Shown here piece by piece: positions 2,567 to 60,879 of a stretch of 64,000 bases of DNA. The stretch comes from Owenia fusiformis. Taxonomy: Eukaryota; Annelida; Polychaeta; Sabellida; Oweniidae. A model generated the notes under the pieces. It was not told the DNA's origin. It saw only the letters and a list, made by a program, of their open reading frames with translations, and did not search any database. Positions within the stretch are counted from its first letter, which is position 1. Every line of letters begins with the position of its first letter. The translations under genes were made by a program, and so were the position numbers. The stretch is from contig CAIIXF020000011.1 of the NCBI GenBank assembly GCA_903813345.2, positions 23,605,754 through 23,669,753 of the forward strand, in the 5' to 3' direction.

Positions 2567-2596
2567 GATTTGAGGAAGAATGCTGTTGCTATAGTG

Positions 2597-3964
2597 ATGG
2601 GGTGCTTCTACTCTACCCAGAATGCCAATGATACGAACCCACGGATGTTCCGTGTATTTAACGTGGATTCACAAGGACAGGAACTTAATCCAGGGAACAT
2701 CGAAATCACAGACAATGAGCTGATTTTATATCAACGTGGGAAAGAACCAATCAGGTGGCCTTTAAGATGCTTAAGACGATATGGATTTGATGCTGATTTG
2801 TTCTCATTTGAAAGTGGACGCCGTTGCCCTACAGGGCCAGGAATTTATGCGTTTAAGTGTCGTAGAGCGGAAAATTTGTTCAATGTTCTGCAGGAGGCTA
2901 TACAGCGTGCAGGACAGGAGGAGAATACTAGGCCCTCTATGTTGTTTGAAACAGCATCAACGAACAGTCGGCCTGGGTCGATGATTGAATTAGAACAACA
3001 GCAGCATCTGAATGGAGCCTTTGTATCGTCAGAATCCCCCGCTAATGGTAATGTTGGCTACATGCAGCCTCAGAACACTACACAGCCATCATCCCCCCAT
3101 TATGTAAATGGGCATGTTGGTACCACACCAGCTACAACCGCAATCAACCACATACAATCCAATCACATGAATCCAACTGATTTAGATGGCCCCGGACATG
3201 AATATATGAACACTGCGCCTCTACCCATTGCCCAGAAAAACTGGCCAGCTGCTAGGCCTAATGGAAATGGTGTCTCTGCTACTGAAATACTTGTTGATTT
3301 TGCAGAAGAGAATGTACGTGAGGTTCAATCTGACGTAAGGACAATTAATTACGCCATCTTGGATTTACCTCGGAGTACCGAAAATTTATCCTCAACAGGA
3401 GGTGCTACAAAGGATTTACAATATGCTGACCTTGATCGTGACGTGCTTTCTGGGGCAGCAGCCACGTTACCAAAACCAAATACACCGCCAACTGGATCCA
3501 AAAGTTTAAATTACGCTGATTTGGATCACAGTTGTGATGAGGCCGTGGGCCCAACATATGTTAATATAGGAAGTGATGTGAAACCATTGAGTAAAAAACA
3601 GCAAAGAGTTGAGCCTGGGAAAAAATTGACATTGCCACGGCAACAGTCAAGTGACGAACAGCATAGTTACGCCAATCTTGAGATAATCGCATCCAATAAT
3701 ATAAAAAAGGAACAGGGCTTGAAAAAAGTCAACTACATTCAACTAGATCTTGAAAAAGCCAATGATAGTCAGTCAGTTGGACCGAGCACAACACCTACAT
3801 CACCCAAAAGTATGACTTCGGGGCTAGAATCCCCTAGTCGGCGTACAGAAATGTACACAATGATTGATTTCCACAAAACTGAAGCTTTGTCAAAAACCCA
3901 ACGGCCACAAGGTGATGATGCTGGTGCCCGGAAAACACGTCACAATAGTACTGTTGGAATGTAG
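2597..3964 (+). CDS. FRS2: FRS2/FRS3-type fibroblast growth factor receptor substrate (docking adaptor)
   Basis: Membrane-anchored adaptor linking FGF receptors (and relatives) to Grb2 and SHP2. ATG at 2597 gives MGCFYSTQN, with Gly2 and Cys3 suited to myristoylation and palmitoylation, as in the family. An upstream TTG-initiated extension is excluded because a splice acceptor (TTTTCCAG, ending 2566) lies in front. The product is 455 residues. Residues about 15-107 are the IRS-type PTB domain with the family blocks ELILY, CLRRYGFD and FSFESGRRC. The tail is low-complexity with tyrosine motifs: Y169 (YVNG), Y203 (YMNT), Y321 (YVNI) and Y358 (YANL) are YxN Grb2-type sites; Y380 (YIQL) suits an SHP2 SH2 domain; Y252, Y276 and Y306 are repeated NYA-x-LDL-like motifs. 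The C-terminus RKTRHNST matches vertebrate FRS2/3. The coding region has no introns; a 5' non-coding exon must lie upstream. Confidence 0.93.
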   Translation: MGCFYSTQNANDTNPRMFRVFNVDSQGQELNPGNIEITDNELILYQRGKEPIRWPLRCLRRYGFDADLFSFESGRRCPTGPGIYAFKCRRAENLFNVLQEAIQRAGQEENTRPSMLFETASTNSRPGSMIELEQQQHLNGAFVSSESPANGNVGYMQPQNTTQPSSPHYVNGHVGTTPATTAINHIQSNHMNPTDLDGPGHEYMNTAPLPIAQKNWPAARPNGNGVSATEILVDFAEENVREVQSDVRTINYAILDLPRSTENLSSTGGATKDLQYADLDRDVLSGAAATLPKPNTPPTGSKSLNYADLDHSCDEAVGPTYVNIGSDVKPLSKKQQRVEPGKKLTLPRQQSSDEQHSYANLEIIASNNIKKEQGLKKVNYIQLDLEKANDSQSVGPSTTPTSPKSMTSGLESPSRRTEMYTMIDFHKTEALSKTQRPQGDDAGARKTRHNSTVGM

Positions 3965-20043: not shown

Positions 20044-23000
20044 ATGGCTCAAACCTCACTTCCCACAGAAGTAAGTTCTAATTTTCTCATGTTTTCTTTC
20101 TCATCTTTCAACTTTATTTTATGCTATAGGCTATTCAACGAAACGAAATAGAGAAACTCCATACATGCCTAATTATATGCTGTGTTTACTATTATTGTTT
20201 AGTCTTGACTATGTTGATGCAGTGGCATAGCCAAGAGACAAGGTGAAAATGTTTCCAATAATTTTCACAAGCGCCTCATCCTGGCAAAGTCAGCACCATC
20301 TCATGAAATAATATCTAAATAAAAAGGAAAGTCCGATCATGCCATTTTGGTAAAAATTAACAGATACCCTCAGGGCTCTCGCCAGGCTTTTAGACTGTGG
20401 CGCAGCACCACACTCTATTTAGCTCCCTCCACACCCTATTGGCAAATCATGACTGTTTCCAGTCTAAACTTGACTGAATATATAATAATAGCATGTAAAA
20501 AGGATAAAACATAATATAAATATGATTTATCACGATTGAACGGTTATTCTGAAGATGTTAGCACCACACCCTAAATATTTCCTGGTGAGAGCCCTGACCC
20601 TACTTTTCAAACTAAGAATATTCGACGTTTCCACACAAGTATTTCTCTATTTTTTTAGTGACGTAGGTCCAAAAGATACCAAATGTTCATAAAAATGAAA
20701 GTCCATACCTCAAATAACGTGGAGATAGTAGAAAACAGTTAAAATGTGCTCATTATTCACAAAATGTTTCTCAACTGTATCATCTTGCTAAATCTTGTTG
20801 CAATCGGTCAGTGTAAAATCATATCCTCTAGCCCAAATCCCAGGAAAGTAATAATTACCTGAAGTAAATGCGCAAGATTCCATTATTTTGGTTCGGTTTA
20901 TGGTGCATGCGCATTAAACTCAGTGATCTGATTGGTTCAAGTCATCATGACGCGTGCTCAATCAATACAGGAACATTTAATTTGAGATAGATGTCACTTA
21001 CGTTCATTATTTCACAGCAGTTCCTACCTATAATGCACCATATATTGCGGAAATATTTTTGTTTAGTGTCAAAACAAAAAGTATGTACCCAAAACAAATG
21101 TAATGATATAATGTCAACCTGCCCCGGATTCGTTTGTTGTACAAACTTAAACCGAACCAATGGCAGAAAAGCACTTTGAATCATGGGAATGAAGTACTTC
21201 CCTTAATGAAAAACCAATCCAAGTAAAAACTGAACCTCGTGCAGATTGCCCCGACTCCACTGTTTCCACCAACAGTAAATATTCGGACATTTAGTTTTCG
21301 GACTTCTCTTTACTAAAGTAGAGTATACCATTGATAGTGCTGACTTTGCATCCTGGCTATGCTACAAATATGAAAGCGAAGTTATACTTCAAAACACCAT
21401 TAAATATGTACTTAGTTGGATGATGGCAATAGATTAATAGAAGAATATGATGATAATAGAGGGACCATGACAATGCGGTAGCCAGACAGCCAGAGATCAT
21501 CTCAGTGTATGTCAACATTGGGGGACTTCCAAGGGGGGTACACGTAGACTATATCCTCTAGTCTGAAATTCTTTTAAATTTGGAATGAAAATATTCAGAC
21601 TATAGTCCACATATGCTTAAATCTGAGATTGAAAAATATTTGTTTATATAGGAAGTGCCATTCAAAATGGCAGATGGAATAAATTAATTTGCACATTTGT
21701 TTCTTTACCTAGCTTTATTTCCATTTGACAACATGCTGTGTTACTTTTATAGTATTTAATTGTACTACTTAATCTGTTAATTGAATTGTTATAATGTTTA
21801 TTTTTGGGAAGTGAAGCTTCCTAAAATTGATAATTTTGTGTACAAAATGTCCTGTTTTTTCCCACAGGAGAGACATGATGATCAAAAGACTGAATTCTCA
21901 GGATATTCAGTCTATTGGATATAGACTAGGGGTACATGTGTTATAACTTATAACACATGTAGTATGTATCCAACATACTGAGTAGAAGTCGGTCTGTTAT
22001 GATGGACTACCGTCCTGTGGAAATTGCAGTGAATTTTTTGCATAAAATTATCAATTTGAGGAAGCATTAGTTCACAAAAATAAACATTATAACACTTCAA
22101 TTAGACTTAGGCCAGGGTGCATGTTCGGAATTTTGCTGCATTCCTCAATTGAGTCACATGTTATTTTTCAAACAGCAATCACTCCTTCCCCACATTGTCT
22201 ACATCTTCCAGTTTTGCACAAAGAGTGCACTTATGTGCCTAGAAAAGACTGGTGAGAAGATAATAATGTAAAATGTATAAAAAAACGAGAAAATTCAATG
22301 AAAAAAATTTCTGAATATTTTACTGAATTTTCTTGTTTTTTATACATTTTATTAAAACATTCTTCTCTACATTCTTTTCTCGGCTGTTTTGAGGGATAAC
22401 TTCATTTTAAAAGCATTTTTCACCGAAACGCTACCTTTTTGTTCATTTTGTCAGCCGATTTGCTTTGTATCAACATAATAATACGTCAGTAAAACATCTT
22501 TCCAATGTTACATTTATTACTACAATGTAGTTAAGAAATGACACTTACATATTTTAAGAGATCAAACTTAAAGAGTTCAAGCTGACTCTCCCAAACTTGA
22601 GTTCAAGCTGACTCTCTCAAACTTGAGTTCAAGCTGACTCTCTCAAACTTACGAGTTCAAGCTGACTCTCACAATGTTCTTAAGCGTTCAAACTTAAAGA
22701 ATTCATATTGACTATCACAATGTTCTTAAGCGTTCAAACTTAAAGAATTCATATTGACTATCACAATGTTCTTAAGTGTTCAAACTTAAAGAATTCATAT
22801 TGACTCTCACAATGTTCTTAAGCGTTCAAACTTAAAGAATTCATATTGACTCTCACAATGTTCTTAAGCGTTCAAACTTAAAGAATTCATATTGACTATC
22901 ACAATGTTCTTAAGCGTTCAAACTTAAAGAATTCATATTGACTATCACAATGTTCTTAAGCGTTCAAACTTAAAGAATTCATATTGACTCTCACAATGTT

Positions 23001-26000
23001 CTTAAGCGTTCAAACTTAACATCAAACTGATACTCATAATGTTAAAACTAGTGCTGTAGTATTGACCTAAAATTTCTGTGCCCAAAAAACGGAAATATTT
23101 TCAATTTTTGTGTCCTCTGAATTTTTTTTGTGTCCTTAACATGTATGGGATGGAGTTAATATGAGCCCTGGCGTACAATTTTTATTAATTTAGTGTACAA
23201 TTAGATTCATAACTTATTGTCAGATTCATAAGAAAAATGGAAATTAAGCATCATAACAAACTTGAAATCACTTTATGTCTTATGTCATATGACTACTTAC
23301 TGTAAAAATAGTGAAACCGCACCCCCTTTGGAAAATGTGTCTGATTGGCCTGCTAGAATAAGAAACATATTGTGATTGTACTATATTAGTTCTTTGAATC
23401 AATTTTCTTATTTTTTTGGTATAAGCACTAACAGAATAGTGTGGCCTTTAGATAATTCATCTATTTTACATGTTTTTTTTACATGAATTAAGAAACAAAG
23501 CATGAAATGTTTCATGATCTCTTATTTTTAGGATATTGGTTACATACCTAATAAGTTATACAAGGCAGAAAAGCGGTTGGAACAATTTCCATATGATACA
23601 GAGTCCTGGAGTGTGCTGATAAGAGATGCACAGGTATATGAGTATAGAGGTTGAGAGTAGACATGAAATTTGGAATAGCACCATTTTAGTGAAAAATTAA
23701 AAATCTTATGGAGCTAACCTTGTTATAATGTTGTATCATGCCAAATATTTTTGAAATGTATTTAGAGAATTTGATTGTTCCTAAAATTTAATACAGGGGG
23801 TTTCAGTATTGGGCGAAAAATGCTTGTTATTATATATATCATAATCACCCTTTTAATGAAATTTTCAATATTTTCCATGTTGAAATTATGATAACCAACA
23901 ATTTTTCATCATTTGCTATCAGAAATTGTATTGAAATTATTATTATCAAATAATGGGACTTACAAAATGTCAAAGAAAATTCAATGTTTTTTTCAGAATA
24001 AAAAGATTGAAGATGCAAGGCCATTGTTCGAGCGATTGATTGCACAATTTCCCAATAGTGGGCGCTACTGGAAGCTTTATATTGAGCAAGAGGTTAATAT
24101 GAAATTCAATATTTGATTATTCTATCCAAAATACTTCTTGAGACGTCATGCTAATTCCTTTGTTTCCACTAAATGTTGATTCTCAAGACAAAGCATGACT
24201 GATAAGAAGTATTTTTGTGGTTCCATGCAATGAAAGTACAATGAAACTTGTATATCTGAACACCTTGATGTGAACACTTTTTTGATCTTATTTGTTTGAA
24301 TTAGACAGGTTTCTTGCAGTTCAATACTAGTAATTTATGCACATCCATTACTCTATTTTTCAATATGCATTAAGTTAGAAAGTAGCATACTTTGATTATA
24401 CATGTACCATGGGAAAACTTGTCTGAAGTATATGCTCATAGGATGGCTAAGCATATTTCATATTGATTTGATACAAGGGAATGAATATTGTATCAGAACT
24501 GGAACCAAAATGTGTTCACATTTCAGAATGTTCAGTTTCAAAGTTTTCACTTATTCATATTTTAAATCACAGGCTATACATGTATAATCAGACCAGTAGC
24601 CAGGGGGAGTGGATGGAGCGGCCGCTTCCGGCTACGGGTCTGATAATTAGCAGATTTGAAAGCTATTGCATGGTTTCACTATCATTGTTACATTTGGTTC
24701 ATTAAAGTATGATAAATCCTAATACTTACTTTACATTTGAACTTATTATTATTATTATTTATACTATTATGGATACCCAGTTTAAAGAGAAAGTTAACAA
24801 ACGTCAATTTAAAAAATAGGATTTATCAATACACACTATGTTTGATTTTACATAATCAACAGCCAAATGCTAATATTTCAATTGATTTTTGTACAACTGT
24901 AATACAGTATAGAAATCACTTCATTTATGTGAATCATGTCAATTTGAGACAAGTATTTTCACATTAATATTGTACATATCACACCAGGTAAAATTTAAAT
25001 TGAAAAATGATGGACTTAAAAGTGAGGGTTGACGAAAAATATATTTGGGACACTAGTGGAAAATAAAACACGTTAGTTACCACTGTGTCTCACTATACAA
25101 CGTGTGGTGTCATTTGATGTGTTACATTTATTCCTAGTTGTGTTCATTTCTTTTCTAGTTGTGTTATTATGAAATGCTGGAAATATTTTTAAAACATGTA
25201 TATCTGATGCTTAAGTAACAACGGTACATTATTTTGTATTACAAGAGCTATTTTTATTGTCAAATGACTGTGTGAATGTATGTGTGGGAAATGATAATGA
25301 TATGATCATGGTAATGATATTTGGTAGTGTATTCTCTGTTCTGTACTAAAACTTTCAAAATCTTCCAAAATATACCACATTTTTCCTATATAGCTATGGT
25401 TGAAATGCCACATGTACCCACAACAGAATGATAGGTAACGTGTGTGCATATATAATATACCATTTGGTTTATTTTTGACAGTGACAGTATAAATGTTTGT
25501 GTGAAGGCACTTTCAAAAATGACATATGTTGGTTGAATAATACAAGAAGTGTGCTTTATACGTTTAACATTTGGGAGAAGTTATGAAACATATTTAATGA
25601 CCTATTAATATCCACTCTCATTACAAAACAAAACAAAACACTTGCCCTTATATACCCACTCTTTTATAACCAAACACAAGATTTTAGATTCTCTAGGTTT
25701 TCAGTTTTTATATACCCAATTGGATTAACAGGGTGTAGATGAACAGTAACTGTATGATTGAATGATACTAAATTAATCAATTAATTAATGTACTGCAGTT
25801 TGATATTTGAATATGGAGAGCGTTTGAGAATTTCTAATATATCTGAATATGTATGGGTTATAAAGGTTAACATTATATATGTGTACTGTTTCATAACATT
25901 GCTATGACGATGACCAGTTTGACTATGTATAGCCTACTCCAACTTGGACATAATTAAGAGACCTTAAGACTGTTTCTATGTGGGCAGGAAAGTGCAAATT

Positions 26001-29000
26001 GTTTCTTGAGTGTCATTTCCTCATTTTGCATCTCAGCCTAATTGAATTTTTGTGATTTGTACTTCTTTTAAAATATCCATATAGCCTATATAACTTGTTA
26101 TATAATACTATTGTAAAGCAAAGTTGTGTGTGTTTGACAGACATTACAGTTAATCCTTAACAGAATCCCTTAAAATCTACAAGCAATAGAATACACAATA
26201 CTATCCCTTTAAATGTGTTACTATGCAAAATGGCCAGTGACAGCTAGCTGTTTGGTGAAAAACTAGGAAAAGCTTGATATCTAGGTTTAGATCAAGTTGA
26301 AGGCAGTGATATTTGGAATAGACTTCTCATCTTGAAAAGTATATTAATTTGAAGGTGGGAGGCATTAATTAGGTTTTTCACCATCGGGGAAAATAGCATG
26401 AGAGGGTTTCATTTTCTCTCCCGATTTCCTGTTTTACATCAAAAATATTATTACATGTATATATTTCATGGTTTTAAAGTTAGATAAAGTAGTTTTCCAA
26501 GTTTTTCACCAAATTTTGTCATAGCTAAAATTGAAATTTTGATACACTACCATGCTGTAAGCACATCCAAAGTTATAATTACTAAGCTTATGATTGGAAT
26601 TAATTCTACTAGAAATTCTACTGCAAGTTAATTGACGTTCATGGGTATTTATAGTAGGCATATTTACGTCACATGAGAGTTCTTGAAAAGGTTCATGTAA
26701 CAAACAATTTCAGATGATTGTCGATTAAATCTTGGGATTATGACTATTTTCTGACTATGAAGACAGACCTGTATATCTTTTAGTTCCATTCATTGCCTCA
26801 AAGAAAAGTATATACAATGATAGTAAAGTCAATCAGAATCAGATATTTTTTAAACTGTCAATCGTCCCATCAACATACTTTTTCAAAGATGTTGACCTCA
26901 TTTTCACCAAAAAAGCAATCATTTTTAATGTACATGGATTGTTTAATGCATATTCTCTATTTTGATGAATCAATTAGTTCTTGAAAGGAAAACTGAAATC
27001 CTTTTAGATTAGTACAACATGTTCCCCATTGAAAAATCTCATGCTATCCATTGGTTTCAGCTCATTTTGGTCATCCAAATTCAATATCTATAACTCCCTG
27101 GGGGAATCCACTTTCCCTTTCAGGAAAGAAAAAATGTTTCAAAGCACATTCTAATTATGCATTCAACATTATAATATAAGGTTGCATTTTAGTGAAAATT
27201 AGGTTAACATTTTTGAAAAAGTATAGTCCATTGTCCCTTTAATATCATGTTTGGTTCATTTAATTCATTACTTTTCTTGGAGATAATGAATGGGTCTAAA
27301 AGATACACCTGTGTTCATGATCAGAAAATATTCATAATTTAAGTTATGATCATTTGAAATTGTTTGCGATAACCTACCTGCTCCTTTGTAAATATCAATC
27401 AATCAATGAAAAATTGTTAAATGCTATGAAAGCCTATGATGGGGTCAGCCTTCTTCGGAGAAAAGCCAACGAATGGTGAGCATCGTACAATGAGTTTTGG
27501 AGCTGTGTAACTATGATGCATTGTGCAGCAATCTTCAAACAGTGAGTGTCGCCCAGTTGATGTAGGCCATTCTGAATTCCCACTGGTTATAAGGAATATT
27601 TTATTTTGTGCACTGACAGAACTTTGTATGCTTCTATTGTCACTAATTTAATATCTCTGAGTAATACCTCTGATCAATGGTTGTACTGAGCATGTTATTA
27701 TGATTACTGGTTGTATTGAGTATGTCACTGTGGTCACTGGTTGTGGTCACTGGTTGTACTGAGTAGGTTACTATGGCCATTAGTTGTACTGAGTATGTTA
27801 CTATGGCCACTTGTTCTACTGTGTTTGTTACTGTGGTCACTTGTTGTATTGAGTATGTTAACTGTGGTCGCTGGTTGAACAGAGTATGTTACTATGGTCA
27901 CTGGTTGTACTATGTATGTTACTGTGGTCACTGGTTGTACTGAATGTGTTACTGGGGCCACTGGTTGTACTGAGTGTGTTACTGGGGCCACTAGTTGTAC
28001 TGAGTGTGTTACTGGGGCCACTGGTTGTACTGAGTGTGTTACTGGGGCCACTGGTTGTACTATGTATGTTACTGTGGTCACTGGTTGTACCAAGTGTGTT
28101 ACTGGGGCCACTGGTTGTACTGAGTATGTTACTGTGGTCACTGGTTGTACTATGTATGTTAATGTGGTCACTGGTTGTACTATGTATGTTACTGTGGTCA
28201 CTGGTTGTACTGAGTGTGTTACTGGGGCCACTGGTTGTAAGTATTATGTTTCTGTGGTTACTGGTTGTACTGAGTGAGTAACTGTGGTCACTGGTTATAC
28301 TGAGTATGTTACTATGATTACTGGTTGCACTGAGTATGTTACTATGATCACTGGTTGTACTTTGTATGTTACTATGGTTACTGGTTGCATTGTGTGTGTC
28401 AATGTTGTAACTGGTTTTACTGAGTATGTTACTGTGGCAGTGGTTGTACTGAGTATGTTACTGTGGCCACTGGTTGTACTGAGTATGTTGTTGTGTCCAC
28501 TGGTTGTACTGAGTATGCTCTGTCATCACTGGTTGTACCGAGTATGTTACTGTGGTCACTGGTTGTACTGAGCATGTTTCTTTGGCCACTGGTTGTACTG
28601 AATATACTTCTGTGGTCACTGGTTGTACCAAGTATGTTACCATGGTCACTGGTTGTACTGAGTATGCTCTGTGGTTACTATTCTACTGAGTATGTTACTA
28701 TGGTCACCTGATGTAAGTAAATAGTATGTTACTGTGGTCACTGGTTGTATGGAGGAAGTTACTCTCGTCACTGGTTTGTATTATGTACATGTATGATACT
28801 GTGGTCTGGTTGTATTGTGTATGTTACTTTGTTCACTGGTTGTGCTATGTATGTTACTCTGGTCACTGGTTGTACTGATTGTGTTACTGGGGTCACTTGT
28901 AAGTATTATGTTCCTGTGTTTACTGGTTGTACTGAGTATGTTACTGTGGCCACGGGCTGTACCAAGTTTGTTACTGTTGTCACTGGTTGTACTTTGTATG

Positions 29001-32000
29001 TTTCTATGGTCACTGGTCGCACTGTGTATGTTACTATGGTTACTGGTTGTACTGTGGATGTCAATGTTGTAACTGGTTGTACTGAGTATGTTACTGTGGT
29101 CACCTGATGTAAGCACATAGTATGTTACTGTGGTCACTGATTGTACTGAGTATGTTACTGTGGCCACTTGTTGTACTGAGTATGGTTCTGTGGCTACTGG
29201 TTGTACTGAATATACTTCTGTGGTCACTGGTTGTACCGAGTATGTTACTGTGGTCACTGGTTGTACCTAGTATGGAACTGTGGTCGCTTGTTGTACTGAG
29301 TATGTTACTGTGGCCACTTGTTGTACTGAGTATGTTTCTGTGGCTACTGGTTGTACTGAATATACTTCTGTGGTCACTGGTTGTACCGAGTATGTTACTG
29401 TGGTCACTGGTTGTACTGAATATACTTCTGTGGTCACTGGTTGTACCGAGTATGTTACTGTGGTCACTGGTTGTGTATTGAGGATGTTACTGTGGTCACT
29501 GGTTGTACTTTGTTTGTTACTGTGGTCACTGGTTGTACTAAGTGTGTTACTGTTGTCACTGGTTGTACTATGTATGTGACTGTGGTCACTGGTTGTACTG
29601 GGTGTGTTACTAGGGCCACTGGTTGTAAGTATTATACTCCCGTGGTTACTGGTTGTACTGAGTATGTTACTGTGGCCACTTGTTGTATTGAGTATGTTAA
29701 TTTGGTCACTGGTTGTACTATGTATGTAACCGTGGTCACTGGTTGTACTAAGTGTGTTACTAGGGCCACTGGTTGTAAGTATTATACTCCCGTGGTTACT
29801 GGTTGTACTGAGTATGTTACTGTGGCCACTTGTTGTATTGAGTATGTTAATTTGGTCAATGGTTGTACTATGTATGTAACCGTGGTCACTGGTTGTACTA
29901 AGTGTGTTACTGGGGTCACTGGTTGTAAGTATTATGTTCCTGAGGTTACTGGTTGTACTGAGTGTGTTACTTTGCCCACTGGTTGCACTGTGTATGTTAT
30001 GGTTAAGGGTTTTACTGTGTATGTCAATGCTGTAACTGGTTGCACTCAGTATGTTACTATGGTCACTGGTTGTACTGAGTATGTTATTATGGTCACTTGT
30101 CACATAGTATGTTACCATTATCACTGGTTGTACTGAGGATGTTACTTTGACCACTGGTTTTGCTGAATATGCTATTGTTGTGACTGGTTGTATTGAGTAT
30201 GTTATTGTGGTCACTGGTTGTACTGAGTATGTTACTATGGTCGTTGGTTGTACTGAGTATGTTTCCTTGATCACTGGTTGTACTGAATATGCTACTGTTG
30301 TCACTAGTTGTGCGAATAATGTGGCAATTTCACTGGTTGTACTAAATTTTGTCACTTTGGCCACTGAACTTCATCGTTTGAACTAACCGTTTCGTGAATA
30401 CTCTGCATAGAACTTGTGAAATTATACAGAAAAAGACATATCATATCGCATGGGCTGTGTCTTTGTTTCTGAAATTGATCCATTTCCGTATCCAGTTTAA
30501 AGAGTCCCATCACATTGACCCTGCCTCACAGCTTCTCTAGGCTAGGCTAATTAAAGAAAAATACATATAGGCTATGAACAACCATTCTTCAGACCATCTT
30601 TTGCCTTGCATTCTGGACAGTTGTGATGATACATATACAGTAAAACATGTATATTGAACACATTTTGACGAGAAAAACATTCAATCAGTATTGTTAATTG
30701 TAATGAATACATTAGTCAATAAGAGCAGGAGGGAAGCCAGGATTAACCAACTTCATTTGTAATGCCCCTGTCAATTTTTGTAATGCTGGAATCTTTTTGA
30801 ATGCATGGGCAATAAAACTTGATGGTCTTTACAAAAATGTTCATATGTTTATCATACCTTCAAATGCAAGGGAAGATATTGTTAGAACTTCAATGATAAA
30901 ATAGTAAATAATCGTGCAATGAAACTTGCTTTGAATATTACAGTAGATGTATATTACATATTTTAAGATGATACATGATGTCATAATGACTAAACAATTA
31001 ATTTGCTGGTCTAAAACCGCTTAATTTCATAAATGCAATTTAACAAAGACCGCAATACTACATATTTATGGCAAATATGACCTTAGATTTTATATTGGAA
31101 AAGTTTTGTCATTCAAAGCGCATAACACAAGGCTACTCCACGTGTTTTGTAAAGGAATTAACTGCAATGTCACCATGATACCAGCACGTTGAACCATTAT
31201 AGTGCTGGGCAATATTTTTGGCTTTTATTTGAAAACATGTTTAAGAGTACGTTTTTATTTGGAGAAGATAGAAAAATAGACCATTGGAGTTTCTTGCTAA
31301 TATTCGGATTCTCTGTCAATGAAAAGGGGCATATATTCCAATATTGTCATGCTAACCCAATTAAAGTACACTGCCAAATACATCAAACAAAGTACAACCT
31401 GTCAATTATAGGCCATTACCCATCAATCAGGAGGGATACCTCTCAAGGTAAGGGTTTACCAACTGTCAATTATATGGTCTATTTTGATGAAAGGACACGC
31501 CTTTCAATTAAAGGACATTCCTGTCAATTATAGGGTGTATCAATCAATAAAAGGACACACCTGTCAATTAAAGGGCATTCCTGTCAATTATAGGGTATAT
31601 CAAACAATTAAAGGACATTCCTGTCAATTAAAGAGCATATCAAACAATTAAAGGACACACCTGTCAATTAAAGGGCATTCCTGTCAATTATAGGGTATAT
31701 CAAACAAATGAAATTCCTGTCAATTAAAGAGCATATCAATCAATGAAAGGACATACCTGTCAATCAATTAAAGGGCATTCCCGTCAGTTATAGTGTATAT
31801 CAATCAATGAATTGAGTCGGGGACACACCTGTCAATTAAATGGCATTCCTGTCAATTGGCATATCAATCTATTAAATAACACACCTGTCAATTTTAGGGC
31901 ATTCCTGTCAATTGGCATATCAATCAATGAAAGGACATACCTGTCAATCAATTAAAGGGCATTCCCGTCAGTTATAGTGTATATCAATCAATGAATTGAG

Positions 32001-35000
32001 TCGGGGACACACCTGTCAATTAAATGGCATTCCTGTCAATTGGCATATCAATCTATTAAATAACACACCTGTCAATTAAAGGGCATTCCTGTCAATTGGC
32101 ATATCAATCGATGAAAGGACACACCTGTCAATAAAGGGCATTCCTGTCAATTATAGGGTGTATCAATCAATGAAAGGACACATATGTCAATTAAAGAAGG
32201 GCATTCCTGTCAATTATGGGGTATATCAATCAATGAAGACACACATGTCGATTAAAGGGCATTCTTGTCAATTATAGGGTATATCGAGCAATGAAAGGAC
32301 ACACCTGTCAATAAAAGGACATTCCTATCAATCTATATAGGGTATTTCAATCAATGAAAGGACACAGCTGTGGATTAAAGGGCATTCCCATCAATTCTAG
32401 GGTATATTAATGAATGAAAGGACACACCTGTCAATTAAAGGACATTCCTGTCAATTATAGGAAAAATCAATCAATGAAAGGACACACCTGTCAATTACAG
32501 GGCATTCCTGTCAATCATAGGGCATATCAACCAATGAAATGACACACCTGTCAATTACAGGGCATTCCTGTCAATCATAGGGCATATCAACCAATGAAAT
32601 GACACACCTGTCAATTAAAGGGCATTTTTGTCAATCATAGGGCATATCAACCAATGAAAGGACACACCTGTCAATTAAAGGGCATTCCTGTCAATCATAG
32701 GGCATATCAATAGCTGTCAATCAGTATGCATAACCCTTCAATCAAAACGGTATAACTAGTCAGTCAATAAAAAAGTAGTTTAATCCGGTAGCCGACAGCT
32801 GTTATTTCCATTCACAAATACAAGTTTAACCGAGACAGTAGTCAGTTTGGTGATGGACTCTTTATTAAACCCGCACATTGCTCTTAAACGCAATATTTCG
32901 ACATACATTATATATCTATATTTTCATACAGCCAACAAGATTACTAAAGCTCTAGTGTAGGGTTTGACTTGATTAAAAGCTGTTTTTCTGCGTTATATCA
33001 AAGCACAAGCATTTTAGAGTTAAAAAACAAAAATAAATTCCCGGGTAGGACGCCCACGGCAGGCATTCTACCATAAGACCAACATCAGTCTATGAATACT
33101 AGAGAGTAATTTATGCTACTACATGTACTAAATATTGAACGTTCTAATTCAGTTGTGAGGTCACATTCTAAATAGGCCTATAGAAACCTTCCAAAAATAA
33201 TATTGTCGACGACAATCGAAACAATTCAAAGAACAATCCTCATAATGACACATTTATCGTGAGTATTTTTAAACAAGATTTCCCCCATTCGCTCACCAAT
33301 GTATTTACTTTCATTAAAGCTAAAAATCTTACAGTTGGCTCTTGAACAACCAAAGATTGTGTTCTAGAGCGATGTGCAGCTTTAATATTGAGGACAATAC
33401 ACAATAATATAAGAACTGCACAGAGATGGATCAAATCAATCACTGAATCTCTAAGACACTCTAACCACCAATTATTATCTAATTTAAACCTTGGTATTGT
33501 ATGATCAATCTACAACACTGTCTACAATAACCTCCAATTAAAGAAACATAAACATTGATATATTCACGTTGACTGAACTACTATTATGCATTGAGAAATT
33601 AAGGCTTAATTAAGGTTTTATAAGACTATAATTACACACTATAGAATTTTTTTGATTGTCAGTTGCTAAGTATGTTTTTGTTAATGCTGATTGTGCCCAG
33701 TATGTTACTATTGGTATGGATTGTGCTAAGTATGTTTTTGTAAACACTGATTGTGCTGAATGGTTGCTCTTGTTATTGATTGTGCCAAGTATGTTTTTGT
33801 TAGCACTGATTGTGCCCAGTATGTTACTTTTAGTATTGATTGTGCTAAGTATGTTTTTGTAAACACTGATTGTGCTGAATGGTTGCTCTTGTTATAGATT
33901 GCGCCAAGTATGTTTTTCTTAACACTGTGTCCAGTATGTTACTTTTAGTATTGATTGTGCAAAGTATGTTTTTGTTAACACTGATTGTGCCCAGTATGTT
34001 ACTATTGGTATTGATTGTGCCCAGTATGTTTTTGTAAACACTGATTGTGCTGAATGGTTGCTCTTGTTATTGATTGTGCCAAGTATGTTTTCCTTAACAC
34101 TGTTTGGGCCCAGTATGTTACTTTTAGTATTGATTGTGCTAAGTATGTTTTTGTTAGCATTGATTGTGCCAACTATGTTACTATTGGTATTGATTGTGCC
34201 AAGTATGTTTTTTTGTTAACACTTATTGTGTCAAGTGTGTTACTATTGGTTTTATGCCGAGTATGTTACTATTGGTATTGATTGTGCCAAGTATGTTTTC
34301 CAAAACACTGATTGTGCCCAGTATGTTACTTTTGGTATTGATTGCGCCAAGTTTGTTTCTTTTGTTAACACTTATTGTGTTAAGAATGTTACTATTGGTA
34401 TTGATTGTGCCAAGTATTTTTTCCCTAACACTGTTTATGCTGAGTATGTTACTTTTAGTATTGATTGTGCAAAGTATGTTTTTCTGAACACTGATTGTGC
34501 TGAATGATTGGTCTTGTTATTGATTGTGCCAAGTATGTTTTTGTTAACACTGATTGTACCACTGTGTATGCTCTTATTGGTATTGATTGGTTTTCCTTAA
34601 CACTGATTCTGTCGAGTATTTTACTTTTGGTATTGATTGTGCCAAATATGTTTTCCTTAACACTGATTGTGCTGCGCAAGTTACTATTTGTGTTGATTGT
34701 GCTAAGTATGTTTTTGTTAACACTGATTGTACCACATGTGTTAAGTTATTGCTGGTTGTACTGATGTGTATCATATTATGTTCTACTTTATTTCTAGATG
34801 AAACACAGAAACTATGAAAGAGTAGAAAAGGTAAGGTATGCTTTTGTACATTTGTCTATTTGAAATTGCAGAAAGAAAGCCAACAGTTGTTCATTTCTAG
34901 CCACTGTCTTTCATAAGAAGTACAAAGCCACATCAAAATTAACTACAGATTTTCTGATAACTCAAATACTGGTGATAGGATTTAGTCCAAAATTTGTAAG

Positions 35001-38000: not shown

Positions 38001-41000
38001 GAGGTTTCCTTTGCCCCATGTATAAGCGTTAACCTTGTGTATGCTATTTTACACCACAAAGGTAAATTGGATCCGACAAAATCTCAGTAAGAGAGTAAAC
38101 TGTCCCTGTGCATACTGTCCCATTGAAGTCCCATAAGGCATAAACTTATGAGATAAATGATACTTTCAAAAGCAAGGTAGAACATAATAAATTTGAACAA
38201 TTTTTATGTTATATACTTGGGTGCATCAAAAAGTTTTGCAATTTTGACACTATCTCAAGTTCTACATTTAACTTTGCTTTGGAATTTGGCACAATTATAG
38301 ATCATATATCTATACATAATGTGTCATGATTTGTATGCTCATCTGTGATTAGTCAAAAAGATATGGTTGCTATGGTAACTGGACCCTAGGGTACTCGGTT
38401 CCACCTAAAATATGTTAATTTTAAATTCTATTATATTCTGTTATTATTATGATTCAGTCACCAAAATTACAGATTTGTGTGTCTTTTCATTCCCATTTTC
38501 TATTTCTTATTGTTCTGATGACACAACACAAGACTTATGACATATGGATTTACATTGTGATGTAGATTGTGGGGAGAACTTGTAAATTCTGGCAGCCATT
38601 TTGTTTCAAGTATATTTTTGGCTACAAACCCCACTTCAATATGGACAACGCAAGGCCCCATACAAGTAGGGTGGCAATGGATGCTCTAGAGGACCTAGAT
38701 TGAGAGCGTGTACCAAAGGTAGCTTACTCCCCAGACACATCACCCTGTGACTTCTTCTTGTTCAGTCATATGAAGAAGGGATTGAGGGGCATGCGCTTTG
38801 ATACCCAGGAGGAACTTGCCGCAGCCGTGAGGAAGCGATTTGCTGTTTTATCAGCAGGGGGATTTCAGGCTGTCTTCAGAGACTTGGTCCACAGACATCA
38901 ACAATGTTTGGCAGCTGGGGGCAATTATTTTGAATAATTTGAGAACAATGTTTGCAGAAAATTGATAATAGGATTTTGAAAACAATATTTTAATATGCAG
39001 AAAATTGTTAATATGAGACTAAACAAGGTGTTGGCAAATTGATGTCATTTATTCTTTTTATTGCGTAATAATAAATTTGCATGGAACCATAAGGTCGCAT
39101 CTTATGTTGCTATGACAACCATATTTTCTTAAAAAATGAAGATCCGGTCTCCAAATTTTACATGTATGTCCAAAAATGTATGATCACTGTATGTGCCAAA
39201 TATGATGACATAACTCAATATAGTTATTGCGATAGAGTCAAAATTGCAAAATTTTTTGATGCACCCAAGTATATGTTTTTATTAATAGTGTATCTCAAGA
39301 CTCAAAATAACAGTAGAAGTGATGTCATATTGCCTTTGTAAATCAGAAATTTTTGTTGGTTTCAAGCTTATACATAAACCAGTACTACCTATATTTCAGA
39401 TAACATTGAAAATCTACCAATTCATGAATTCACAAAGTTGGCTTATACCACCTATATAACTTCAGGTGACATTGAAAAAATTGCTTGAATATTAAATGCA
39501 CTTGCAAAAATATTATATATACACTTTTGTAAGCGGTCCAAAAATGTCAAGTCCTGCTTCTTATTTTACAGCGAGGCAGTGGGTTCATATGCGGAAAACC
39601 AGCGAATCACTGCAGTTCGTAAAGTCTACCAGCGTGCGGTCATCAACCCTATGATAGGTATAGAGCAAGTCTGGAAGGAGTACAATCAGTATGAACAGGT
39701 AATAAAGCAATATCAAAAGTAAAACAAATATGTTAAGAAAGAGCTTTATGGAAATGTTTGAAGTGACATCGTCGTAGTGATATCTTCAAGGCTAACCAAT
39801 TAAGCGTGGCGTATTCTCCTCTTTGAGGGGAGGCGCAACATCAATATCCTGTATGCCCCTTATATGTTTGATTGGTTAAAAGACACTCTTTGTCAAAGTA
39901 ATAAAATTAACAATTTTGGCATCACCAAGTGTTTGTTCTCCAGTTTATGCTTTTTTGTTTGTTTTCTGAAAAATTGCCTCATTCAGAAGGTTGGTGCCAT
40001 TAAACATATATCAAACTTTGAAAGGCCAAATGTTATAAAAAGCAATATTAAGGGTTGTATTCTCTCCATTAAATGCACAATTTACTCCAGTGATCACATT
40101 CATTCTTTAAGAAATAAATAAATTTTTATTATTACTGTAGGCCATCAATCCATTAATTGCCAAGAAGATGGTAGAAGACAGAGGGAAGGCTTACGCTAAT
40201 GCTAAGAGAGTCTCTAAAGAATATGAAAATATGACAAAGGGCCTCCAGAGGAATCTACCCTCAATCCCACCCACCAATACACCGGAGGAAGCCAAGCAGG
40301 TACATTTGAGCATTGACTGAAATTAACATAATATATTGTCAATCCTGTATATCTGAACAACTCTCTAATCCAAACACCTCTCAATGTGAACACTTTTTCA
40401 GTCCAATTTTTATGTCACCTTCAGAAGTCACCAACTTTTTGTTGACTGTGTTCAGATGACAGTGTTCGGCAGTTGTTGTCAGGCATGTGGCAGTCAGTTG
40501 TGTCTCAGATAGCAGGTGGTGACATTTTGCATGTTAGTGCCTTGTTTAATCTGCCATAGACTTCCATGTTAAAAAACCTTAAAATGTAAACATCTGAAAA
40601 TCTGAAAAGCTTTTTGCTGCTCCCTTTGGCATTCGGATTAGACTAGACAGATTTTACTGTCAATTCTTTCTTGGAGTTCGTAACTCAAGTTAAAAACATT
40701 ATTTCTACAATTTATCATATTAAGTCAACAAGTATTTCCAGGTCTACCAAGTACATCGCCAGTCAGGCGACTGTTAATTTGAACCCTGTGGATTTCCACC
40801 TCTTACTAGTCCACTCATAGGAAATCCAAAACTTTTGTGTTAATGTCATTTTACATGCCTATTCTACTTTCAAGATTATTATGCAGAGTTAGCCATACAA
40901 AGTGTCAAGCTCTCTTAAAATGTAACAAACTAAATCTCAATTCATCAAAAGTGATCCACCTTGTATTAAAATCCTGTTATGATACATGAATGAATGTTAT

Positions 41001-47679: not shown

Positions 47680-47685
47680 AATAAA
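47680..47685 (+). terminator. CSTF3: CSTF3 distal poly(A) signal
   Basis: AATAAA 114 bp after the CSTF3 stop codon, the first canonical hexamer downstream. Confidence 0.6.
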
Positions 47686-57771: not shown

Positions 57772-59724
57772 CTAGTTTATCGATCGCTGCGCCCTTGCGA
57801 AACCATTGTTACTCGGATTTTCTGGACATTGTTTTATGAGATGATTTTCACTTTTGCATATAAAGCATACTCTGTTATGTTGGCACTCTAAAAACGCGTG
57901 GCCCCATTCGCCGCAATTTTGACAAGCCGTTTCGTGTTTACCTGCGTATACCCTGGATTCCCACCCTTGAGAGTTACTGTGAACTGAGCTAGGGACACGT
58001 GGTACTGTCGGATAACGCCTCGGATTTTGGAATTGTGTGCCATGATTATTTTGGGGGTTGTAATATACTGGTCTGGGAACGTACGTGTTTGGTTGCATGA
58101 ACTGCCCACGCGGTGGCATCATTTGGTTAACCGATCCGGAACCTTGAATAACATGATTTTGACCTATTTGTTGCAATTTTTGCTCAATTCTGTCTAACCT
58201 ATTATCCGTATCTTGATCAAGCGAGGCCTGCTTTACCGCATTCAAATTACCCGCGCCTTTCCGACCTTCATGAAAAATCTCATACTTGACTGCCATTTGC
58301 AAAGCCTCATTTAATGTTACGGGATCTTTCTCAAACACATACCATTCGATTGTTTGGTCGTTAAGTGCGTCTTTAAAACTTTCCAATGCCTTCCTTTCCC
58401 TTTCTTCAAAGGAAGCGCTTGGGAAAGCCAGACGTACCAATCGTTTAATATCATATGCGAGAGCCATAACATCTTCATTTCGCTGTCGTTTTCGAGATTT
58501 CAACTGATTTCTGAACTTTTCATGTTTGTGTTTGGGTTCAAATCGATCATTCAGTGCGCTAACTAGTTCATCATAAACGAGAATTCCACCGGCCGGAAAT
58601 AATTCTGTTAAAACACTAAGTGCTTCGCCCCGCAAATTGGATGCTAACTGTGACAACTTAGTTTCGTCATCCCACCTGTTACACTGTGAAACGATCTTGA
58701 ATTGTGTGAAGAAATCATTAAAGCTGGAAGTTCCGTCATAAACACCGATTTTCGCGTCCTTTCTGAACTTTTGTGGCTCACTCTTATTTGCGTTTATTGA
58801 CTGAACTCCTGGCGTTGCAATTTTTGAATTATTTGGTACAAATGACCACTTTCCCTCGGGAACGGTTACCTCATGAGGAGCATTAATAGGGAGCGGGGGA
58901 AAGAATGGAACTTCGGGGCTTGTCTGATTAACAGAGTTAAGTGATGAATCGGACACACTGGGAATCTGGGACAATTGATTTGGGCCTGAATAAAGTGACG
59001 CACCCATGGGCGGCGGACTCTGATTTCTACTTTTATGTGTCACTCGAGCTCCCTCGTACGATGGCCTATCGGCCCCGCTATATAACCGACCACTTGTTGA
59101 TTGGTAGCTTGGCTTGAAATCACGACTGAGCTCTGGTTGCAACCTCGGAACATTTGTTTGATACTCAGACAACCGAGTTTGTGGAACACCTGTATTAACC
59201 ATTGGTTGGGAAAATTTTGCATTTTCATGGCCCTGGTAAAGGTCAAAGGGTACGCTAGTGTTTGATGCCGGCGGAGGCAAACCTTGCCTCGGAATACTAC
59301 CATATACCTGATTGACAGAATTTTCATATGTGCGGCTATCATTTTGCATTTGTTCTGCCGTCTCATTAAAATGTAACCTCTGTTTCAGAGTTTTCGAACG
59401 AGCACCTTGATCTGTGAACCCTTGTAATTCACCACCGTCTACTTGTTTACCACTTGGCGGTTTCAACACATTTGTATTTGACGGGTTTTCGGACTCATTT
59501 CCCGCAACTTCTGTTTTATCCAGATCAAGGTCAAAATTGGACGTTATACGGACGGTTGAGTCAAGGGGCTTCAATGTAGACAACCCACTGTCAGGTGCAC
59601 CGCCAAAAGATACCTCTGTATCTTTATACCTTAGAAGACCACTACCTCGACCTCTACCTCTACCTGCAAAGTGGGGGAGAGGCGCACCCGGTTCTACGCC
59701 TTCCGAAATACCTTTTTCCGCCAT
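57772..59724 (-). CDS. Retrotransposon Gag polyprotein
   Basis: 650 residues from ATG (59722-59724) to TAG (57772-57774), no interruptions. Residues 1-320 are polar and low complexity with an RG stretch (GRGRGRGSG, 21-29). Residues about 325-490 fit the retrotransposon gag/capsid fold: GVYDGTSSFNDFFTQF, KLSQLASNLRGEALSVL, LNDRFEPKHKHEKFRNQL, EALQMAVKYE. Residues 503-524 could form a short coiled coil. Two CCHC zinc knuckles follow: C601-x2-C604-x4-H609-x4-C614 and C620-x2-C623-x4-H628-x4-C633. It ends after the second knuckle with no protease. Its role would be particle formation and RNA packaging, with enzymes presumably supplied in trans. Confidence 0.92.
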   Translation of the reverse strand: MAEKGISEGVEPGAPLPHFAGRGRGRGSGLLRYKDTEVSFGGAPDSGLSTLKPLDSTVRITSNFDLDLDKTEVAGNESENPSNTNVLKPPSGKQVDGGELQGFTDQGARSKTLKQRLHFNETAEQMQNDSRTYENSVNQVYGSIPRQGLPPPASNTSVPFDLYQGHENAKFSQPMVNTGVPQTRLSEYQTNVPRLQPELSRDFKPSYQSTSGRLYSGADRPSYEGARVTHKSRNQSPPPMGASLYSGPNQLSQIPSVSDSSLNSVNQTSPEVPFFPPLPINAPHEVTVPEGKWSFVPNNSKIATPGVQSINANKSEPQKFRKDAKIGVYDGTSSFNDFFTQFKIVSQCNRWDDETKLSQLASNLRGEALSVLTELFPAGGILVYDELVSALNDRFEPKHKHEKFRNQLKSRKRQRNEDVMALAYDIKRLVRLAFPSASFEERERKALESFKDALNDQTIEWYVFEKDPVTLNEALQMAVKYEIFHEGRKGAGNLNAVKQASLDQDTDNRLDRIEQKLQQIGQNHVIQGSGSVNQMMPPRGQFMQPNTYVPRPVYYNPQNNHGTQFQNPRRYPTVPRVPSSVHSNSQGWESRVYAGKHETACQNCGEWGHAFLECQHNRVCFICKSENHLIKQCPENPSNNGFARAQRSIN

Positions 59725-59735
59725 TTGTTTACACC

Positions 59736-59740
<5 letters not shown>

Positions 59741-59775
<35 letters not shown>

Positions 59776-60879
59776 TCATCAAACATAAAATGTATACATA
59801 TAGGTGAAATATTATACAAGTCACTCCATTACCCATTCATTCACATTCTCCACTCATACCATCATACTGTTAAAATCCATTTTCATTTTTAAACAATAAT
59901 CTAAATATGCCTTAAAGTTGTAATAATTTGGAGGCTCTTGTTGCATTTTCTTATTATATAAGTAGTACTTTCCTATAATAATTACCATATTTTCAAAATC
60001 ACTCCATTTTGGGCTACCAAATACTACTGTAAGCAGAGAAAAATTTTCGAGATCTTTTAATGTATTATCTATTATTGATTTCCAAAACTGTTTCGTATAA
60101 TCACAATTAAAGAAGATGTGGTCACAAGTTTCTATGTTCACATGGCAAAACTCACACATTGGTGAAGGTGTTATTTTGTATTGAAATAGTTCACTGTTTG
60201 TATACAAAATATTGTTTATGAGCTTATATTGAAATGCCTTATGTTTTGAATATGTCAGGGTTTTATGAAAGTGTTCATAGTAAAATGGCCAATCTTCTTC
60301 TTTAATATGATATTTATCTGATAAAGTGTGTTTTGCTGTTGGATATTCTGCAATAGCTTCCAGCAATATTTTATAAAATTCTCTAGATGTACATTCTAAA
60401 AAGTTGACTTCTGTATCGTTTTTTATTACCATTATATTTTCTAGAGATACCTGGTCATTCATATTTCCATTCGGTACTCTTAACCAATCTGATGGTATTG
60501 CCTGAATGAGGCCAAACCATTTTAGCATATAATTGTGTGAGAGTCCAGTTTGCATTTTGACCTGATTCCATGATTTAACCATTCCATTAAGCATAACATC
60601 TTTGATTCTTAGAAAACCTTTATCATAAAATTCCTTCCAAAATATTGATTTATTTCTGATGACAATGTTCTCATTATTCCAAATTATTTCATCCAATGTA
60701 TTTTTCTTTGGTCTCCTTAAAAGCTTATATGCCTTTAAAATATTATGATAAAATCTTGGGCTAATTGCATTTAGTTTATTTATGTCAAAATTGCAGTTTA
60801 GTAAAAGTAGAAGCCCGCCATATTTATGGAGATAATGATTTGGAATAATTGTCCATTGTGATTCCTTTTTAGTATCCTA
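59741..60879 (-). mobile_element. 5'-truncated L1/Tx1-like LINE inserted in the LTR element
   Basis: The insert begins (plus coordinates) with a long T run continuing to about 59773, the LINE poly(A) tail on the minus strand, and carries the end of an ORF2. The host word TGTTTACACCGTTTT occurs on both sides (59726-59740 and 60880-60894), a 15-bp target-site duplication; T content makes the left edge approximate. Confidence 0.88.
59854..60876 (-). pseudogene. LINE ORF2 C-terminal fragment
   Basis: The open frame reads on the minus strand to a stop at 59854. It has the post-RT region of L1/Tx1-type ORF2 (FWKEFYDKGFLRIKDVM, LIQAIPSDW) and the terminal zinc-binding motif CEFCHVNIETCDHIFFNC (C-x2-C-x7-H-x4-C). 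The reverse transcriptase core and endonuclease are missing because of 5' truncation. The clearly open part starts at about 60696; upstream text (YKLLRRPKKNTLDEIIW) continues the same frame. Confidence 0.82.

Follow-up and report, generated by a model that had tools for sequence, protein, structure and literature searches.

Does intron 3 of the CSTF3 (CstF-77) gene in this DNA carry a vertebrate-like poly(A) switch? In vertebrates, according to the part of Luo et al. 2013 that deals with the gene (PMC3708835), CSTF3 has a poly(A) site in intron 3, the intron is long, its 5' splice site is weak, and the arrangement gives feedback. These facts had been stated correctly in a preliminary description of the window, that is, of the whole stretch of 64,000 nucleotides analyzed here, in which positions are counted below. 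In the published account, the feedback sites in the CstF-77 genes of flies and of vertebrates are treated as separate inventions. The vertebrate layout in a lophotrochozoan makes this issue testable, and, if the switch is real, a homeostatic circuit of mRNA 3'-end processing would date to the bilaterian ancestor.

The coding part of the gene lies as follows.

20044 to 47566, + strand: CSTF3 (CstF-77) coding region, 20 exons, 718 aa, from start to stop codon

The model consists of the coding exons, and untranslated exons are outside its scope. It was found by eye and checked by script: all 19 introns have GT-AG ends, and the 20 coding exons join into a single continuous frame of 718 aa. The human CSTF3 chain (PDB 6uro_E) aligns to residues 11-716 with 1047.5 bits. 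In the genome (498 Mb, 525 contigs) there were 8 matches to Pfam Suf, every one of them at the CSTF3 locus. When 551 of the 718 residues were used as the query for relatives in the viral and the prokaryote contig collections, each collection gave two pattern matches and none was confirmed. Judged by its sequence, the gene is the CSTF3/CstF-77 orthologue, and the frame and the human alignment agree with the name and the coordinates that had been given to it at the start. For introns 2-7, a splice-aware protein aligner without a donor-strength model placed the borders at the same bases. The other 13 introns are based on the frame, the GT-AG ends and the match to the human protein.

The kind of animal was judged from its Hox genes, COX1 having given no match in the assembly, which is no proof that it is absent. 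The Hox query gave 25 genome matches, nine of which are grouped in some 450 kb of one strand of contig C1 (18.02-18.47 Mb) and look like a single Hox cluster. In a Lox5 homeodomain of this cluster (L015), KLTGP stands directly behind the domain, at positions 64-68 by count. The section of PMC5431905 that treats this Lox5 peptide describes it, at 64-68, as a mark of lophotrochozoans and platyhelminths that was unseen in ecdysozoans and deuterostomes. Most likely, therefore, we are dealing with a lophotrochozoan, and the comparison with vertebrates spans the protostome-deuterostome split.

The surroundings of the gene hold several other items. At 2570-3961 there is a 464-aa frame with an IRS-type PTB domain, FRS2-like by look only. 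Retrotransposon remnants occupy 57775-60696 on the - strand: one frame, of 650 aa, has a zinc knuckle and matches gag at a score under the Pfam cut-off, and another, of 280 aa, contains a reverse-transcriptase-associated zinc-binding domain. Two look-alikes of mariner-type transposase ends were seen by eye, one at 603-905, where the Pfam scan gave no match, and one at about 38600-38960 inside CSTF3 intron 6.

Whether intron 3 is the intron of the vertebrate switch depends on its position and phase. The exons and introns concerned are these.

23532 to 23633, + strand: exon 2, ending in phase 0 after residue 43, donor CAG/GTATAT (the slash marks the exon end)
23634 to 23996, + strand: intron 2, 363 nt, short, as in human CSTF3
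23997 to 24092, + strand: exon 3, ending in phase 0 after residue 75 (...WKLYIEQE)
24093 to 34797, + strand: intron 3, 10,705 nt, longer than each of the other 80 introns mapped

The human protein aligns to residues 11-75 without a gap, and 40 of the 65 residues are identical. The account of the human isoforms in PMC3708835 gives predicted lengths of 103 aa for isoform 2 and of 44 aa for isoform 3, in which intron 2 is kept; human exons that end after residues 43 and 75 would be compatible with these published lengths. In the present gene, retention of intron 2 would add VYEYRG, followed by a stop. We take the tail of human isoform 2 to be 28 residues that begin with VTIL, and 75 plus 28 fits the 103 aa; a literature search for this tail turned up no paper. 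The preliminary description had placed the exon 3 boundary at the vertebrate protein position, and residue 75, phase 0 and the ungapped alignment agree with this. The vertebrate intron 3 seems, from the alignment and the isoform lengths, to stand at the same protein position and in the same phase.

The length of the intron also resembles that in vertebrates. Intron 3 is the longest both among the 19 introns of CSTF3 and among the 81 mapped in the genome, and the view that it is by far the longest is well founded, the next longest of the gene having 3,461 nt. The sizes of introns 1, 2 and 3 are 3461, 363 and 10705 nt, an order of large, small and largest that is also the order in human CSTF3 as given in PMC3708835. 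Part of the length is made up of repeats.

27671 to 30311, + strand: minisatellite 1, 30-bp unit, about 85 copies, 2,641 nt
31490 to 32711, + strand: minisatellite 2
33664 to 34730, + strand: minisatellite 3

These three arrays make up 4,930 of the 10,705 nt. Without them the intron has 5,775 nt, which is still above the next longest intron of the gene. The first array contains 94 TGTA on the sense strand. UGUA is the motif bound by cleavage factor I, and in RNA such a TGTA-dense array may be a decoy, or its density may be a mere chance of the repeat unit. In the part of PMC3708835 on poly(A) elements, UGUA is named as an upstream element.

The strength of the donor is central to the question.

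24090 to 24098, + strand: weak donor GAG/GTTAAT of intron 3, with T at +3 and A at +5

The donor-blind splice-aware protein alignment placed this donor at the identical base. In order to rank it, we used 81 donors, namely the 19 of CSTF3 and 62 from chaperonin, PP2A-type phosphatase, RACK1, GSK3 and CK2 genes. The 62 introns were mapped with the donor-blind aligner, and 11 of the 73 proposals outside CSTF3 were dropped (2 of 27, 1 of 6 and 8 of 40 in the single runs) where they fell at template ends or in stretches of protein mismatch, as judged by eye. Four introns near template ends (two in CCT4, one in CCT6 and one in CK2) were kept, and the residues behind them fitted. We scored the donors with the genome's own matrix, with a human-type matrix, and by U1 duplex energy, which is also among the methods given in Luo et al. 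2013 (PMC3708835).

The result differed with the measure. On the genome's own matrix, 11 of the other 80 donors were weaker than GAG/GTTAAT, 4 of the other 18 in the gene among them. With the human-type matrix, 1 of 80 was weaker overall and none of the 18 in the gene; by U1 duplex energy, the values were 5 of 80 and 1 of 18. In a smaller set of 49 of these donors, the weaker ones numbered 6 of 48 (own matrix), 1 of 48 (human matrix) and 4 of 48 (U1). Thus the statement that the donor is the poorest of 19 holds on the human-type matrix but not on the other two measures. Among the 15 introns longer than 1 kb, the donor CAG/GTACAA of a 2,286-nt RACK1 intron was weaker on the own matrix, and the donor AAT/GTTAGT of a 1,788-nt CCT5 intron paired more poorly with U1.

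T at +3 alone is nothing unusual, as 8 of the 81 donors have it. The other seven of these carry G at +5, so that GAG/GTTAAT is the single donor in the set to combine T at +3 with a base other than G at +5. One of the dropped donors, TTA/GTTCAT, at the last residues of its template, is also of this form, and if it is real the count changes from 1 of 81 to 2 of 82. The human intron 3 donor, deduced from the tail VTIL that we assume, would presumably be GTNACN, which likewise has no G at +5. We conclude that the intron 3 donor is weak, that how extreme it is depends on the measure, and that an extremity like that of the human donor, placed at the 0.7 percentile in the splice-site section of PMC3708835, finds no support here.

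When intron 3 is not spliced, the frame of exon 3 ends early.

24093 to 24116, + strand: codons VNMKFNI, read on into the intron and closed by TGA, for a short product that would have 82 aa

The stop after seven codons had been pointed out before and is indeed there, but little weight can be placed on it. In the first 3.5 kb of intron 3, a stop occurs within 8 codons at 43% of positions, and we rejected the early stop as a meaningful signal.

A strong 3' splice site, such as the human gene has, was not found at intron 3: its acceptor scored 8.5, in the lower quartile of the 81 acceptors (median 10.2). For the acceptor of human intron 3 the percentile is 94.3, and weakening it had a minor effect only, according to the experiments of PMC3708835 on this site. 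We therefore regard the strength of the acceptor as a trait of the human gene that is inessential to the switch.

The signal for polyadenylation in intron 3 consists of the following.

24971 to 24974, + strand: nearest upstream TGTA, 91 nt ahead of the hexamer, where CFI might bind
25062 to 25067, + strand: poly(A) hexamer AATAAA, 969 nt from the start of intron 3
25078 to 25137, + strand: UGU/GUG-rich stretch, downstream-element score 11

No other AATAAA of the intron comes before the hexamer at 25062, which is preceded by an ATTAAA at 24701 with a UGU/GUG score of 0. Cleavage would be expected at about 25080-25100. No TGTA was found within 60 nt upstream of the hexamer; beyond the nearest one, others lie at 24890 and 24898. 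In order to judge the signal, we surveyed the AATAAA sites in 306,752 bases of both strands, consisting of 13 genome pieces and of the window, in which the arrays were masked. Scoring covered 60 nt downstream of each hexamer; those of 25062 contain 11 TGT and GTG, which is the top value of all 417 AATAAA sites, and the next-best scores were 9 and 8. A site with a score of 11 was found in 1 of 280 1-kb windows, namely its own, and the score was reached in 3 of 2000 first-order Markov trials of 1 kb. Among all AATAAA and ATTAAA in the 19 introns of CSTF3, 25062 has the highest score and the runner-up has 5. The first signal past the stop codon of CSTF3, at 47680, scored 0. The AATAAA with a dense GT tract, as first noticed, was thus confirmed, and a hexamer with a U-/GU-rich downstream element, as in the vertebrate type, is present at 25062. 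The UGU/GUG score was picked after the GT richness had been flagged, and its values should be read with this in mind.

That the signal is the end of a transposon was rejected, since the six non-self genome matches, of 42-64 bp, all fall at 24223-24296, more than 700 nt from the hexamer. A search of the genome, which skips simple repeats and very common words, found no second copy of the hexamer region.

These results have to be weighed against chance. It is conceivable that the signal is an accidental string in a long AT-rich intron, silent or producing noise, and that position and length match those of vertebrates only through the age of the intron and a length that it has by chance. AATAAA occurs at 1.36 per kb per strand in the surveyed sequence. 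When the downstream sequence was scored by a broader U/GU count (TGT, GTG, GTT, TTG and TTT), 25062 scored 15, a value reached by 15 of the 417 sites, itself included, that is, by 14 others, and in 140 of 2000 first-order Markov trials of 1 kb. On this count, the AATAAA sites at 39900 in intron 7 (23) and at 21678 in intron 1 (16) of the gene itself are higher. The UGU/GUG scores of 9 and 8 belong to sites in chaperonin loci, so that a good score is no proof of use. The minisatellites account for part of the growth of the intron, the early stop is ordinary, and the donor is not extreme on the own matrix. Against this explanation stands the co-occurrence of the longest intron, a weak donor and the top UGU/GUG signal of 417 at the vertebrate position. 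We regard a chance origin as unlikely, though not lightly to be set aside. Of what had been noticed at the start, the coordinates, the length of the intron and the AATAAA with its GT tract hold good, while the rank of the donor varies with the metric and the early stop is an everyday occurrence.

Between the donor and the hexamer there are three further sites of interest.

24320, + strand: first base after the acceptor-like GGTTTCTTGCAG, score 9.6 (median of the 81 acceptors 10.2)
24527, + strand: first base after the acceptor-like TTCACATTTCAG, score 9.9
24985 to 24993, + strand: U1-like site CAG/GTAAAA, duplex energy -8.3, GT at 24988, 74 nt upstream of the hexamer

They allow two variants. 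In one, exon 3 would be joined to the acceptor at 24320 or 24527, the transcript would end at 25080-25100 as a skipped terminal exon, and the weak donor would matter less. Both acceptor-like sites score above the 8.5 of the intron's own acceptor, and about 0.5 such sites are expected in this stretch at the background of 0.48 per kb per strand, although two of them are not very rare. This variant would still need the donor GAG/GTTAAT to be spliced, to a nearer acceptor, and in vertebrates it is exon 3 that runs on into intron 3, as the relevant part of PMC3708835 describes. We think the skipped exon very unlikely.

In the other variant, the poly(A) site would be a cryptic one that is normally silenced by U1 at CAG/GTAAAA, that appears only in U1 shortage, and that has no role in feedback. 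With -8.3, compared to -4.2 for the real donor of intron 3, this site pairs with U1 better than any other match with GT in 24080-25300, and it is a possible decoy donor or U1 suppressor. Sites of -8.0 or better occur at 0.45 per kb (97 in 214,389 bases), and the present one is maybe due to chance. Moreover, silencing by U1 is compatible with a regulated switch, the vertebrate site being U1-controlled as well in the account of PMC3708835. As a full explanation, we give the cryptic site little credence.

The reading that we put foremost is that intron 3 holds, as in vertebrate CSTF3, a poly(A) switch with a composite terminal exon, the use and feedback of which we infer. We adopt it because the intron is the same one, is the longest, has a weak donor and contains the top UGU/GUG signal of the 417, and we hold it with about even confidence. 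What is observed directly comprises the orthologous gene, the position and phase of the intron, its length, a donor without a purine at +3 and without G at +5, the stop, and the UGU/GUG-rich AATAAA. The switch could work as follows. When CstF-77 and its partners in 3'-end processing are high, or U1 is low, the nascent RNA would be cut at about 25080-25100 before intron 3 is spliced. This early cut would give a short mRNA with a frame of 82 aa and less full-length CSTF3. When the processing activity falls, splicing would win and the full-length mRNA would rise. It is a weaker suggestion that the switch was present in the bilaterian ancestor and that the fly has come to a different arrangement.

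On this last point, the preliminary description went too far. It had cited Drosophila su(f) in favor of an early origin of the switch; in the discussion of PMC3708835, the fly and vertebrate sites share no common surrounding sequence or exon-intron structure and are taken as convergent, and no such site was found in C. elegans. Its account of the vertebrate gene stands, and the present gene agrees with that account in the position, phase and size pattern of the intron and in an intronic poly(A) signal that looks strong. What may speak for antiquity is instead that a lophotrochozoan has this intron in common with vertebrates; one genome is insufficient to separate inheritance from parallel gain. 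That the fly arrangement is a relocation and the absence in C. elegans a loss, contrary to the published convergence, is a doubtful suggestion that we make tentatively.

Conversely, the shared intron might be old and a vertebrate-like switch might have arisen in it independently, in keeping with the separate origin that Luo et al. propose for the fly; the convergent su(f) and the lack of a C. elegans site, both in the part of PMC3708835 just mentioned, agree with this, and so do AATAAA in place of the AUUAAA of vertebrates and the differences in acceptor strength and in UGUA. A separate origin would have to reproduce the same intron, the same phase and the large-small-largest pattern, as well as a donor without G at +5, which the human gene presumably has too. 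We find it rather improbable.

For lophotrochozoans, no case of a CSTF3 intronic poly(A) site was found among the open-licence papers listed, including the portions of PMC8934653, PMC11275414, PMC5707805 and PMC7471841 that bear on the subject. Among known systems, Drosophila su(f) is, like the present gene, an orthologue of CstF-77, and one of its introns has a poly(A) site; it differs in that the site is in another exon-intron context and the short transcript has no in-frame stop, as the section of PMC3708835 on the fly states. PCF11, which is regulated by its own premature termination (PMC7471841, in the part on autoregulation), is likewise a 3'-end-processing factor that limits itself, but it is another gene and a vertebrate case. 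The nearest system is vertebrate CSTF3. The hexamer there is AUUAAA (PMC3708835, in its description of the site), in contrast to AATAAA here. Compared to the human gene, the donor here is weak without being extreme in its own genome, and the acceptor is ordinary. There is no UGUA close upstream, and the intron is swollen by minisatellites. The read-through tail has 7 residues, whereas that of the human protein would have 28, a number that fits the 103 aa. The likeness between the two lies in the gene, the position and phase of the intron, the order of intron sizes, the weak donor, the in-frame stop and the GU-rich downstream element.
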